Below are positions 1-5,342 of a DNA stretch of 5,789 nucleotides, one piece after another (positions within the stretch are counted from its first letter, which is position 1; each line of letters begins with the position of its first letter). Position numbers and translations under genes: made by a program. Origin of the DNA: Anaerobacillus sp. (GTDB taxonomy: Bacteria > Bacillota > Bacilli > Bacillales_H > Anaerobacillaceae); assembly GCA_007120055.1 (NCBI GenBank), contig SKOL01000512.1:1-5789 (forward strand). Reading direction: 5' to 3'. The notes beneath the pieces are model-generated. The model was not told the DNA's origin and did not search any database. It saw only the letters and a program-made list of their open reading frames with translations.

Positions 1-855
1 ACAGGTCTTCCAAAAATGCGAATTGAGGAAGCGGCAGCTAGACGTCAAGCACATATCGACTCGAAAAAAGAAACGATTGTTGGTGTCAATAAATATCGCT
101 TAGAACAAGAAGATCCGATTGAAATTTTGAATATTGATAACACAGCTGTTAGAGAGGCGCAAATCAGGCGCTTAGAGCAATTAAGAAGTAATCGCGATGA
201 AGAAGCAGTATCTAAAGCGCTAGAAGCGATCACTACAGCTGCAGAAACTGGTGAAGGTAATTTATTAGAGTTGGCGATTGAAGCAGCACGAGCACGTGCG
301 AGTTTAGGAGAAATTTCTGATGCATATGAAAAAGTCGTCGGTAGACATAAAGCAGTGATCCGCTCGATAAGTGGGGTTTATCGAGCTGAGTTTGCTGAAA
401 GTGAGGAAATTGATCTAGTCAGAAAACAGGCGGATGAATTTGCCGAGAACGAAGGAAGACGTCCACGGATTATGATTGCGAAACTCGGTCAAGACGGCCA
501 CGACCGTGGTGCTAAAGTTATTGGAACAGCATTTGCAGATATTGGGTTTGACGTTGATATCGGGCCGTTGTTCCAAACGCCAGAAGAAGCCGCCCAACAA
601 GCTGTCGAAAACGATGTCCATGTGATTGGTATGAGTTCTTTAGCTGCCGGTCATAAAACATTACTTCCTGAAGTGGTCAAGGAATTACGTAAACTAGGAA
701 GAGAAGATATTTTAGTCATTATCGGTGGAGTTATCCCTCCACAAGATTATGATTATTTATATGAACAAGGAGCAGCAGCTATTTTCGGACCTGGAACTGT
801 TATCCCAGTTGCAGCCCAAAAAGTATTAGAAAAAATAAACGAACAACTGCTTTGA
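1..855 (+). CDS. mutB: Methylmalonyl-CoA mutase large subunit, C-terminal part (partial at left edge)
   Basis: This is the 3' part of the adenosylcobalamin-dependent mutase that interconverts methylmalonyl-CoA and succinyl-CoA (also called scpA or mcmA). The frame is open from base 1, and the first codons read [20 protein letters not shown], which matches the end of the catalytic region in this family, so the ATG at 16 is internal and not the start. A linker of variable sequence follows, then a complete B12-binding domain (about bases 460-850). It carries the DxHxxG motif as DGHDRG, with the cobalt-ligating His codon at 499-501, then GMSSLAAGH and [11 protein letters not shown], the loops that hold the cofactor tail. 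The stop is TGA at 853-855. The downstream neighbour is meaB, the dedicated chaperone GTPase, which supports a mutase rather than another B12 isomerase. The small subunit and N-terminal catalytic barrel lie outside the window. Identification is firm; only the choice of symbol is open. Confidence 0.96.
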
Positions 856-859
856 TGAT

Positions 860-872
860 GTTGGTTAGTTGG
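860..872 (+). repeat. 13-bp direct repeat GTTGGTTAGTTGG, copy 1
   Basis: GTTGGTTAGTTGG occurs here just after the mutase stop codon and again, identically, at 2340-2352. Both copies lie on the upstream side of a hairpin-repeat array and in the same orientation relative to it, so the motif probably marks the left border of that element. A looser GTTAGTTGG follows at 879-887. Confidence 0.6.
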
Positions 873-905
873 TTTGTCGTTAGTTGGCTAGGACCCTCGC
901 CCGAA

Positions 906-960
906 TTTTTCCGTTAGATGGTGACCGCAGGCATACCGCCATGAGGGTTTAGTATGAAAA
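906..960 (+). repeat. Short hairpin repeat, copy A (degenerate)
   Basis: This matches the family consensus: a left arm with TTAGATGG, a core beginning GTGAC and ending CCATGAG, then GGGTTTAGTATGAAAA. The core stem is damaged here (TGACCG against CCGCCA, two mismatches), so this is a decayed outer copy. The segment GAGGGT at 943-948 could instead pair with ACCCTC at 893-898. Copy A is 73 bases from copy B, without the long hairpin that separates copies in the second array. Confidence 0.7.
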
Positions 961-978
961 TAGGTACTTGGAGGTGGA

Positions 979-1031
979 TTTTCATTCTAGATGGTGACGA
1001 ATAAATCGTCATGAGCGTTTTTGTATGAAAA
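979..1031 (+). repeat. Short hairpin repeat, copy B, in the meaB leader
   Basis: The core TGACGA, loop ATAAA, TCGTCA is a perfect 6-bp stem at 995-1011, extended by a G-T pair. The outer arms ATTTTCAT and ATGAAAAT are also complementary, closing a larger imperfect hairpin. The copy ends about 20 bases before the meaB ribosome binding site (AGGAGGAGGG, 1051-1060). If transcription enters from the mutase gene, this hairpin lies in the RNA immediately ahead of meaB. Confidence 0.8.
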
Positions 1032-1064
1032 TCGCCCGACATTTTAAAAAAGGAGGAGGGTAAC

Positions 1065-2339: not shown

Positions 2340-2352
2340 GTTGGTTAGTTGG
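2340..2352 (+). repeat. 13-bp direct repeat GTTGGTTAGTTGG, copy 2
   Basis: It is identical to 860-872 and stands about 18 bases before the first short hairpin repeat of array 2. The following AGGTACATACTGGA resembles the sequence before copy B (AGGTACTTGGAGGTGGA at 962-978), so the left flank of the array is conserved beyond the 13-mer. Confidence 0.6.
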
Positions 2353-2369
2353 AAAGGTACATACTGGAC

Positions 2370-2422
2370 TTTTACATTCTAATTGATGACGATGCTCGTC
2401 ATGAACGTTTTGTATGGAAAAA
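2370..2422 (+). repeat. Short hairpin repeat, copy C
   Basis: The core ATGACGA, loop TGC, TCGTCAT is a perfect 7-bp stem. The outer base pair is A-T here where most copies have a G-T pair, which keeps the pairing. The left arm is TTTTACATTCTAATTG and the right arm GAACGTTTTGTATGGAAAA. This is the first unit of array 2. Confidence 0.85.
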
Positions 2423-2500
2423 GAACGAGTAATTTTCAGAACGAGCCTCTAAAATTCGCTAGAAGTTTACAGCGAAGAGAGGGAAATTACTCGTTCTTTT
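2419..2500 (+). repeat. Long variable-stem hairpin 1
   Basis: AAAAGAACGAGTAATTT (2419-2435) and AAATTACTCGTTCTTTT (2484-2500) form a perfect 17-bp stem around a 48-nt loop (2436-2483). The stem sequence is shared with neither of the other two long hairpins, but the loop is 37 of 48 identical to that of hairpin 2. Inside the loop, TAAA/TTTA and TTC/GAA close a small stem-loop with tetraloop GCTA. The hairpin fills the space between short repeats C and D. With T-rich and A-rich flanks it could also weakly terminate transcription either way, but the long loop makes it a poor intrinsic terminator. Confidence 0.85.
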
Positions 2501-2550
2501 ACATCTTAGATGGTGACGGAAAATTGTCATGAGAGTTTTGTATGAAAAAA
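2497..2550 (+). repeat. Short hairpin repeat, copy D
   Basis: The left arm is TTTTACATCTTAGATGG, the core TGACGG, loop AAAA, TTGTCA, and the right arm GAGAGTTTTGTATGAAAA. Two stem positions are G-T pairs, which remain paired only in an RNA of the plus strand. The core lies 127 bases after that of copy C and 126 before that of copy E. Confidence 0.85.
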
Positions 2551-2626
2551 GGCGGATGATTTCGTGAACGAGCCTCTGAGATTCGAAAGAAGGTCACAGC
2601 GAAGTGAAGGAAATCATTCGCCTTTT
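2547..2626 (+). repeat. Long variable-stem hairpin 2
   Basis: AAAAGGCGGATGATTT (2547-2562) pairs with AAATCATTCGCCTTTT (2611-2626) over 16 positions, with one G-U pair in plus-strand RNA. The 48-nt loop (2563-2610) contains GAACGAGCCTCTGAGATTCG and, further on, GAAGGTCACAGCGAAGTGAA. A small internal stem TGA..TTC/GAA..TCA carries the GNRA-type tetraloop GAAA. A frame from ATG 2542 through this loop is broken by TGA at 2557-2559. Confidence 0.85.
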
Positions 2627-2673
2627 ACACCTTAGTTGGTGACGGCGCCCGGCATGAAGGCTTAATACAAAAA
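2623..2673 (+). repeat. Short hairpin repeat, copy E (degenerate), in the PAP2 leader
   Basis: The left arm TTTTACACCTTAGTTGG is well kept. The core TGACGG, loop CGC, CCGGCA has one mismatch, and the right arm has decayed to GAAGGCTTAATACAAAAA, losing the usual GTATG. It is the last unit of array 2 and ends about 25 bases before the ribosome site of the PAP2 gene. Confidence 0.75.
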
Positions 2674-3668: not shown

Positions 3669-3803
3669 AAAAGGGGCTATCCCAAAAGTAAGTGGCAGAC
3701 ACCGTTAGGCACCAAATATAGACGGATACATAAATTTATACGTCTATATTTAGTAAGTTCTAAGTTCTGCATGGTGTCAGACACTTATAGGACAGCTCCT
3801 TTT
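3669..3803. repeat. MITE-like palindrome M2, likely bidirectional terminator
   Basis: The 135-bp element has inverted ends: AAAAGGGGCTATCCC then AAAAGTAAGTGGCAGACACC on the left, and GGTGTCAGACACTTATAGG then ACAGCTCCTTTT on the right. The centre is a second perfect inverted repeat, AAATATAGACG/CGTCTATATTT. It belongs with M1 (2091-2205). It sits between the convergent PAP2 and ccdA genes, 48 bases after one stop and 14 after the other. The long stem with T-runs at both ends suits termination on both strands. GGGCTGTCCC-type ends are reminiscent of insertion-sequence-derived small elements in Bacillaceae; no transposase is present. Confidence 0.75.
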
Positions 3804-3817
3804 CACTATAAATTTTG

Positions 3818-5031: not shown

Positions 5032-5038
5032 TTCCTCC
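5032..5038 (-). promoter_or_regulatory. Ribosome binding site that fixes the start of the thioredoxin-like gene
   Basis: GGAGGAA on the minus strand is followed by six bases (ATCAAA) and then ATG at 5025. The upstream TTG at 5040-5038 would place this site inside the coding sequence and has no ribosome site of its own, so ATG 5025 is preferred. Confidence 0.9.
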
Positions 5039-5046
5039 AATAATTA

Positions 5047-5097
5047 TTTTCATACAAACCTCTCATGACGGTAATCGTCAACTTTTAATCTAGAAAA
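5047..5097 (-). repeat. Short hairpin repeat, copy F, in the thioredoxin-like gene leader
   Basis: Read on the minus strand, the core TGACG, loop ATTAC, CGTCA (5080-5066) is a perfect 5-bp stem, followed by the right arm GAGAGGTTTGTATGAAAA. The left arm is diverged (TTTTCTAGATTAAAAGT). The copy ends about nine bases before the ribosome site of the thioredoxin-like gene and points the same way as that gene. Confidence 0.8.
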
Positions 5098-5173
5098 GGC
5101 GGGTGCTTTTCCTCACTTCACCTTGACCTTCTTAAGAATCTCAGACGTTCGTTCGCAAAAGCACCCACCTTTT
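5094..5173 (-). repeat. Long variable-stem hairpin 3
   Basis: On the minus strand AAAAGGTGGGTGCTTTT (5173-5157) pairs with AAAAGCACCCGCCTTTT (5110-5094) over 17 positions, with one U-G pair that would be a C-A mismatch on the other strand. The 46-nt loop keeps the family sequence, including GTCTGAGATTC, TTAA, GAAGGTCA and GAAGTGAGG. The stem sequence differs from hairpins 1 and 2 but is conserved in length. It lies between short repeats G and F. Confidence 0.85.
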
Positions 5174-5220
5174 TTCATACAAAACCCTCATGACGAGGCA
5201 GCGTCACCATCTACAACGAA
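5171..5220 (-). repeat. Short hairpin repeat, copy G
   Basis: On the minus strand: left arm TTTTCGTTGTAGATGG, core TGACG, loop CTGCCT, CGTCA, right arm GAGGGTTTTGTATGAAAA, the closest copy to the consensus on that side. The core is 126 bases before that of copy F, the same period as in array 2. Confidence 0.85.
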
Positions 5221-5256
5221 AACCGTCATGACGAAGTATCGTCACAAAAATCTAGC
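5217..5256 (-). repeat. Short hairpin repeat, copy H (fused to copy G)
   Basis: On the minus strand the core TGACGA, loop TACT, TCGTCA (5244-5229) is a perfect 6-bp stem. Its right arm, GACGGTTTTCG, runs straight into the left arm of copy G, so the two cores are only 38 bases apart and the long hairpin is absent. The left arm reads GGCTAGATTTTTG. Confidence 0.75.
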
Positions 5257-5342
5257 CTATAAGTTAGGCATGGGCGGACTTAACGAACGAACCACATAAC
5301 ATCAAATCACATTTACATGGAATAGATTACTAAATCAATTTT

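Follow-up and report, generated by a model that had tools for sequence, protein, structure and literature searches.

Alternating short and long hairpins in Anaerobacillus belong to a dense repeat family that may be mobile

Small interspersed repeats are common, but where they land, which strand folds and what moves them is unclear for many. Among the described families, the BOX repeats of Streptococcus pneumoniae are modular, hairpin-rich and non-coding, vary in module number and are rare in relatives, and the pneumococcal repeats insert into one another, according to the accessible text of two accounts (PMC3049150, PMC10969869). BOX is further described, in the same accessible text, as having terminal inverted repeats and target duplications. 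The terminator-like SPRITE of the same species combines an 18-bp duplex ending in AAAA/TTTT with a T-rich tract, and the available portion of the source states that no target duplication or related insertion sequence (IS) could be established for it (PMC3049150). The structured repeat bcr1 of Bacillaceae, about 150-170 nt long, is termed specific to the B. cereus group in the title of a reference cited there (PMC2267715), and group IIC introns are located behind intrinsic terminators (PMC3240598, likewise an excerpt). Here we describe a repeat family found in a stretch of 5,789 nt from Anaerobacillus sp. (contig SKOL01000512.1, hereafter the window), in which a short hairpin (S) alternates with a long hairpin (L) or a G/T-rich block (Q). 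We consider it probable that S and L together form a non-autonomous, non-coding mobile element which favours the T-tracts of terminators and builds arrays on itself. With an S and an L about every 7-9 kb in the stretches read, relatives with few or no copies detected and a candidate landing site, this dense family makes landing site, folding strand and mover all testable.

The copies were located with profile models of S (R2) and L (R1) built from the nearest genome, A. arseniciselenatis DSM 15340 (G001); the genome-wide copy counts given below are those of this genome and not of the window's own. An earlier note on the window had read positions 2370-2673 as S-L-S-L-S, and the model matches reproduced this order exactly, all on the + strand: S copy C at 2371..2420 (52.4 bits), L1 with a stem of subfamily AAAAGAACGAGTAATTT at 2419..2499 (98.0 bits), S copy D at 2498..2548 (71.1 bits), L2 with a stem of subfamily AAAAAGGCGGATGATTTC at 2546..2626 (101.2 bits) and S copy E at 2624..2673 (38.3 bits). 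A short Q block, recognised from the sequence and the Q family, stands before this array at 2340..2370 (+). All three long copies of the note were recovered, the third at 5094-5174 on the - strand, and the copies are indeed spread over three gaps between the window genes. The note's count of eight short copies holds for seven, which the model found in full; the eighth is a partial S below threshold. The region 2365-2680 folds 6.0 sd below dinucleotide shuffles (0/100 as low), and 5035-5260 on the - strand folds 6.1 sd below shuffles (0/200 as low).

By published description, the designs closest to these arrays are pneumococcal BOX and SPRITE, with group IIC introns as the nearest parallel for the landing site. 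Like BOX, the Anaerobacillus element is composite, modular, non-coding and hairpin-rich, a likeness of descriptions and not of sequences; unlike the BOX so described, S alternates here with L or Q, and L joins a constant loop to a changing stem. The terminal inverted repeats and target duplications given for BOX were not found in the Anaerobacillus element. With regard to a MITE in the strict sense, which would show both features, the unit ends carry GTATGAAAA in the same direction left and right, and L and S each have their own inverted arms. L recalls SPRITE, again by description only, in its 17-bp stem between AAAA and TTTT, whereas a constant internal loop, an inner hairpin and an S partner are not mentioned for SPRITE in the accessible part of its account (PMC3049150). 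REP and BIME sequences are likewise numerous intergenic palindromes and hairpin arrays, but S and L lack the GT(A/G)G head before the palindrome (consensus compared with the available text of PMC2817692), their orientation does not alternate regularly, and G001 yielded no match to the Y1 transposase. The proposed landing site behind terminators is shared with group IIC introns as excerpted, whereas Rfam recognised no intron part and the unit of about 140 nt is too short for an intron-encoded reverse transcriptase. bcr1 is a structured Bacillaceae repeat of similar length, compared here from its partial description and not from its sequence. No named family was found to contain the element, BOX, SPRITE and bcr1 being compared by description only. 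At E<=1, no family of Rfam release 15 matched S or L, whether among the window copies or among the distant ones, and the eight Rfam matches in nine further sources (tRNA, FMN riboswitch and others) all lie outside S and L; a tRNA identity was rejected. A CRISPR was dismissed as well, as the note had done, since the repeats diverge where near-identical direct repeats with unique spacers are expected and the supposed spacers are a conserved hairpin family. A literature search of openly licensed papers, mainly of titles and abstract openings, found no description of S/L repeats.

The long hairpin has an outer stem of 17 bp between AAAA and TTTT, a nearly constant internal loop (GAACGAGCCTCT / ACAGCGAAG) and an inner hairpin. 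In 39 copies, 16 of the 22 named pairs change on both sides, and the both-sided changes occupy 105 cells where shuffles give 32.7 and slid structures 14-36, a comparison that favours the structure on cells paired because it was derived from the same sequences. The inner hairpin covaries too (AAAATTC..GAAGTTT, GAGATTC..GAAGGTC, AAAACTC..GAGGTTT), with some positions inside unpaired. The long unit had been characterised as a changing stem around a fixed loop, and the strong covariation around a nearly constant internal loop bears this out; as a refinement, the changing stems sort into recurring subfamilies (GGCGGATGATTTCGT, GGYGGGTGCTTTTGC, GAACGAGTAATTTCCT and others). Copies in four more distant genomes (G005, G059, G130 and G179) have very different outer stems with the pairing retained and the loop mostly kept. 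In the outer stem of 80 distinct ungapped copies from G001 (1120 cells), G.U occurs 88 times and A.C 18 times; without the two positions richest in G.U the counts are 49 and 16 (p=5e-5), both inflated by shared ancestry. As G.U and A.C would be expected alike if both strands folded equally, the strand in element orientation seems to be selected to fold, as RNA or as single-stranded DNA, between which the statistic does not separate. The strong covariation around the constant loop may mark a fold that binds a protein or ligand and has no match in Rfam. In our reading, this loop (alignment columns 19-32 and 52-65) allows a drawing with two tandem G.A motifs split by A-T and C-G pairs, and the GAGT subfamily has an A-T to G-C exchange there.

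The short hairpin consists of TTTNCATNTTAGATGG, a TGACG/CGTCA stem with a variable loop, and TGAGNGTTTTGTATGAAAA, which matches the fixed arms, stem and changing loop first noticed in the window. Its covariation is weak, with 4 both-sided pairs against 3.3 in shuffles, although the cells so changed number 24 against 8.4. The TTTTCAT of S could pair with its own 3' ATGAAAA or with the ATGAAAA before the preceding L. The Q block is a (GTTGGTTWG)n run in front of S, found 39 times in 800 kb of G001 (3 times in the reversed control), and 24 of the 39 have an S, L or T match within the next 60 nt, T being an insert of about 80 nt described further below. Short Q blocks precede two of the window arrays.

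Further copies of the element, on whose existence its standing as a repeat depended, are abundant in the nearest relatives. The 1.6 Mb of G001 searched (80 stretches from five contigs, profile matches at E<=1e-3) hold 218 S, 185 L and 61 T, or 136, 116 and 38 per Mb, where an L split by T counts twice. The first 800 kb contain 117 S, 99 L and 29 T, and the reversed sequence contains 0, 0 and 0; with gene calls that are crude open reading frames (ORFs), 23 of the 245 repeat matches in these 800 kb lie mostly inside such ORFs. For G002, an Anaerobacillus metagenome-assembled genome (MAG), 236 kb of contigs picked for holding matches yielded 45 S, 47 L and 10 T, which gives no density. Matches to a strict core pattern numbered 101 in all of G001 and 33 in G002, and those to its reverse 0 and 0. 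Within the family, the L model was positive in three of seven genomes (at least 150 copies in G001, 84 in G002 and 2 in G005) and gave 0 matches in the other four; within the order, 6 of 299 genomes were positive (G001, G002, G005, G059, G130 and G179), the last four having 1-4 copies each. A broader L model that includes the distant copies found G059 (4 copies) as sole positive among 398 genomes of the class, and one of two genomes of the G059 family was positive; these order- and class-wide searches scored 10-15 candidates per genome under stricter filters and can miss weak copies. The S model found at least 150 copies in G001, its positive control, and 131 in G002. Eight pattern matches (L295, L296, L297, L298, L301, L302, L303, L304) were dropped because their fold is by eye unlike L, and match L300 in G130 was kept; the reversed core pattern matched once each in 14 genomes, so singletons there are weak without the stem. 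No viral contig contained the exact core pattern, and plasmids and phages gave no match in a distant blastn search. An FMN (flavin mononucleotide) riboswitch (L161 of G179, 1800-2052) lies near the single L copy found in that genome, probably by coincidence.

The left end of the unit is the better defined one. Clusters that begin with L mostly have GTATGAAAA as left flank, and the four G059 copies, whose loci are unrelated, share sequence from exactly TTTT-N-TGTGTAAAAC onwards. In G001 the T-run motif was present at 33 of 132 usable left ends, of which nine with an upstream S remnant were dropped, leaving 24. Eleven of these 24 (T>=4) abut a strong hairpin, compared with 460 of 6302 intergenic runs (p=3.6e-7), and with T>=5 the counts are 11 of 14 and 254 of 2552 control runs. 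An earlier test on 800 kb had few clean cases: 3 of 9 reached -8 kcal/mol or better, as did 8% of 3162 control runs (p=0.02); the 1.6 Mb test applied a stricter rule. Among the nine L copies of G005, G059, G130 and G179, four (L162, L164, L239 and L133) have a strong hairpin, of -8 kcal/mol or better, abutting a T-run that ends 11-13 nt before L. Terminator-like hairpins are thus a preferred landing site where a T-run is visible; as the motif is absent at most left ends, insertion into T-tracts is supported for a minority of copies, and we infer it for the rest.

Several comparisons point to dispersal of the unit. For 23 of the 82 full-length L copies in G001, a second copy of at least 97% identity lies elsewhere. 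At 13 breaks in the alignment of G001 with G002, an element was present on one side only in 5, on both sides with a different make-up in 3 and on neither in 5; the breaks were chosen for breaking and give no rate, and one further break at L188 was left out. At one of the breaks examined, L188:19692, the G002 sequence is hairpin-TTTTTTTT|AAAAAAATTTTC and its G001 counterpart is hairpin-TTTTTT|GTGTG-Q-L-...TTTTC. The gap between mcmA and meaB exists in three states, as S-S in the window (841-1064), S-L-S in the G001 locus L021 (9716-10018) and L alone in the G002 locus L001 (6905-7060); in the last, the right arm of L continues into sequence resembling the common meaB upstream region. Neighbouring L copies within arrays have a mean identity of 0.716 (6 pairs), compared with 0.765 for random pairs; being no more alike than random pairs, they make the arrays look unlike tandem duplications of one unit. 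Only 3 of 191 clusters in G001 are of mixed orientation. Most clusters run along the genes, 106 of the 128 in co-directional gaps running with them and 22 against, and convergent and divergent gaps together have 42 on the leading strand and 21 on the lagging one, as assigned from GC skew. This bias would be expected both from insertion linked to transcription and from selection acting against antisense copies. The suggestion that the repeats might be an undescribed structured RNA or a mobile repeat has gained on both sides, from the covariation and strand asymmetry of L and from dispersal with a defined left end.

Taken as a mobile element, the unit would span about 130-140 nt and comprise the left end GTATGAAAA, L (or Q), TTTTCAT, S and then GTTTTGTATGAAAA. 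For a subset of the copies, comparison supports a position directly 3' of a T-run, which in the best-resolved cases is the T-tract behind a terminator-like hairpin. Since S is itself a hairpin followed by GTTTT, each copy could offer a new landing site, and insertion of the next unit into the T-run of an earlier S would explain the head-to-tail S-L-S-L-S arrays, a course of events suggested by array structure and unlike neighbours rather than observed. The strand in element orientation would be selected to fold into L, as the pairing statistics suggest; recognition would probably depend on the constant internal loop, while paired changes would leave the outer stem free to drift. A putative enzyme acting in trans would recognise L/S and copy the unit. 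For the host we guess a mild effect, namely extra hairpin-plus-T terminators or attenuators in intergenic RNA.

A number of results speak against such an element. The S model found nothing in G003-G007, G059, G130 and G179; S-like hairpins stand by eye behind L in some distant copies (clearest in L133, L162 and L238, absent in L136), but the model does not recognise them (best local score E=0.078). Among the nine distant copies, the T-runs of L238 and L161, 11 and 20 nt before L, are not abutted by a strong hairpin, and three copies (L136, L163 and L300) have no T-run near L. This, together with the failure of the S model in distant genomes, slightly lowered our confidence. In G001, 99 of the 132 usable left ends lack a T-run by the pattern used, and clusters are not denser where terminators are expected (28/138 convergent, 35/162 divergent and 128/551 co-directional gaps). 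The right end of the unit is not sharply defined, and no target-site duplication was seen in the G001/G002 gap comparisons, few of which are clean. The gap comparisons cannot always separate gain from loss, the comparison of neighbours has those six pairs only, and, as set out below, none of the candidate movers, Y1 transposase, reverse transcriptase or IS110, tracks the element across genomes.

The features of L that suggest recognition could also be those of a riboswitch- or thermosensor-like leader selected for gene control. Variable paired stems around a constant internal loop are an aptamer design, selection seems to act on one strand, most clusters in co-directional gaps run with the genes, and all three window arrays end about 9-26 nt before a GGAGG-like site. 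A cis-regulatory RNA nevertheless fits poorly with more than 100 copies per Mb that are about equally dense in convergent and divergent gaps, with the 22 antisense clusters, with the differing make-up of the mcmA-meaB gap in the window, L021 and L001, and with the weak covariation of S alone, and we think it decidedly unlikely. Equally so, in our judgement, is the view that a Y1 (HUH) transposase moves the repeats as palindromes of the REP/RAYT or IS200/IS605 type, S and L being the two end hairpins. Its attraction lies in the hairpin ends, in a T-rich left junction without duplication, which recalls the target habit of IS200/IS605 elements, and in the residual leading-strand bias in convergent and divergent gaps. 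The Y1 transposase (PF01797) was found in G002-G007, G059 and G179, but not in G130 nor in G001, a draft genome in which ten candidates were scored and a gene may have been missed; a control of 14 genomes was positive in 5. Thirty fetched Y1 loci from six genomes contained no L at E<=1, with a best S of E=0.64, the RAYT-like gene L212 of G002 is flanked by eye by a different REP-like palindrome (GGGACGATGTACCTGTCCC), and L and S are unlike each other and nearly always in one orientation. IS110 (PF01548) occurs in nine of ten genomes and was not found in the MAG G002.

A reverse transcriptase, of group IIC or another type, might act in trans on the RNA of the unit and write it into terminator T-tracts, making it a retroelement resembling a short interspersed element (SINE); this we hold to be unlikely. 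A kept left and a ragged right end would be in line with it: among 138 unit matches with an L core, the start falls past model position 20 in 2 and the end short of position 130 of 139 in 29, two of the four G059 copies lack by eye the right half of S, and G001 has two reverse transcriptase genes (PF00078, RVT_1). The truncation statistics swing with the cut-off and are a hint only, as the first cut-off used reverses their sign (57 start past position 8, and 32 fall short of the end by more than 8), owing to differences between subfamilies in the GTATG part, and the ragged right ends may be plain divergence of S. Moreover, RVT_1 gave no match in G059 despite four dispersed copies, 12 fetched RVT_1 loci contained no S, L or T at E<=0.1, and Rfam recognised no group II intron part. 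The fuller picture of a bacterial SINE-like element, in which L-S RNA is copied in trans into the T-tracts of intrinsic terminators, S with its GTTTT serves as a terminator-like landing site on which arrays build up and outer stems are exchanged while the recognised loop is kept, strikes us as unlikely too. The least probable of these readings is that old repeats, no longer mobile, duplicated in tandem and recombined with one another. Dispersed repeats can recombine, and L021, L001 and the window differ at the same gap by loss or gain of modules; against this, neighbouring L copies are unlike (in the six pairs), near-identical L copies lie at distant loci, and elements are present on one side only at five of the 13 gaps and dispersed as four copies in G059.

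The window has two further arrays. The first opens with a Q block at 860..905 (+; GTTGGTTAGTTGGTTTG... ending AGGACCCTCGCCCGAA, of the family defined in G001) directly before an S at 906..960 (+; 44.4 bits), and a second S follows at 979..1031 (+; 62.1 bits), ending some 20 nt upstream of the GGAGG that belongs to the meaB-like gene at 1065. Between the two, in the alignment with L021 and L001, an 18-nt spacer (961..978, +) takes the place of the long hairpin of L021 and might be a remnant or replacement of L. The third array lies on the - strand upstream of the thioredoxin-like gene, with an S at 5047..5096 (35.8 bits), L3 with a stem of subfamily AAAAAGGTGGGTGCTTTTGC at 5094..5174 (87.5 bits), an S at 5172..5222 (58.0 bits) and the partial S at ~5216..5250, where the inner hairpin alone is visible in the sequence and the S model has no match at E<=1. 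As read off their translations without a family search, the window genes are mcmA (C-terminal part), a meaB-like gene, a PAP2-like gene, a membrane protein and a thioredoxin-like protein on the - strand, and a lipoprotein whose start alone is included. The meaB-like protein shares 97% identity with its A. arseniciselenatis counterpart (L021) and 93% with the one in the MAG (L001), and the main DNA blocks shared with L021 are 93.5-95.3% identical.

The T module, an insert of about 80 nt inside L or S in G001, was not seen in the window. A loose pattern sort placed 24 of the 61 T in L, 18 in S and 19 elsewhere, although, of the 14 inspected in each class, 4 assigned to S and 1 assigned to L look like other contexts. 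The T core TGCTCCTGCGGTTACTCGTCGCAAAGC also occurs in G001 repeats with GGAGCTAGAC flanks (L115, L125, L130 and others), in 33-nt tandem arrays, and in two Y1 loci (L216 and L223) of G006, a genome in which no S or L was found. With its core outside L and S, including in this genome, T looks like a separate repeat that entered both.

A different palindromic repeat, of the type GTGNCAGACACC ... GGTGTCAGACACTTATAGGACAG, was noticed by eye in the window at 2090-2215 and 3672-3805. At one gap a similar stretch is present in G001 and not in G002, and part of the 3672-3805 copy matches another place in L021 in reverse.
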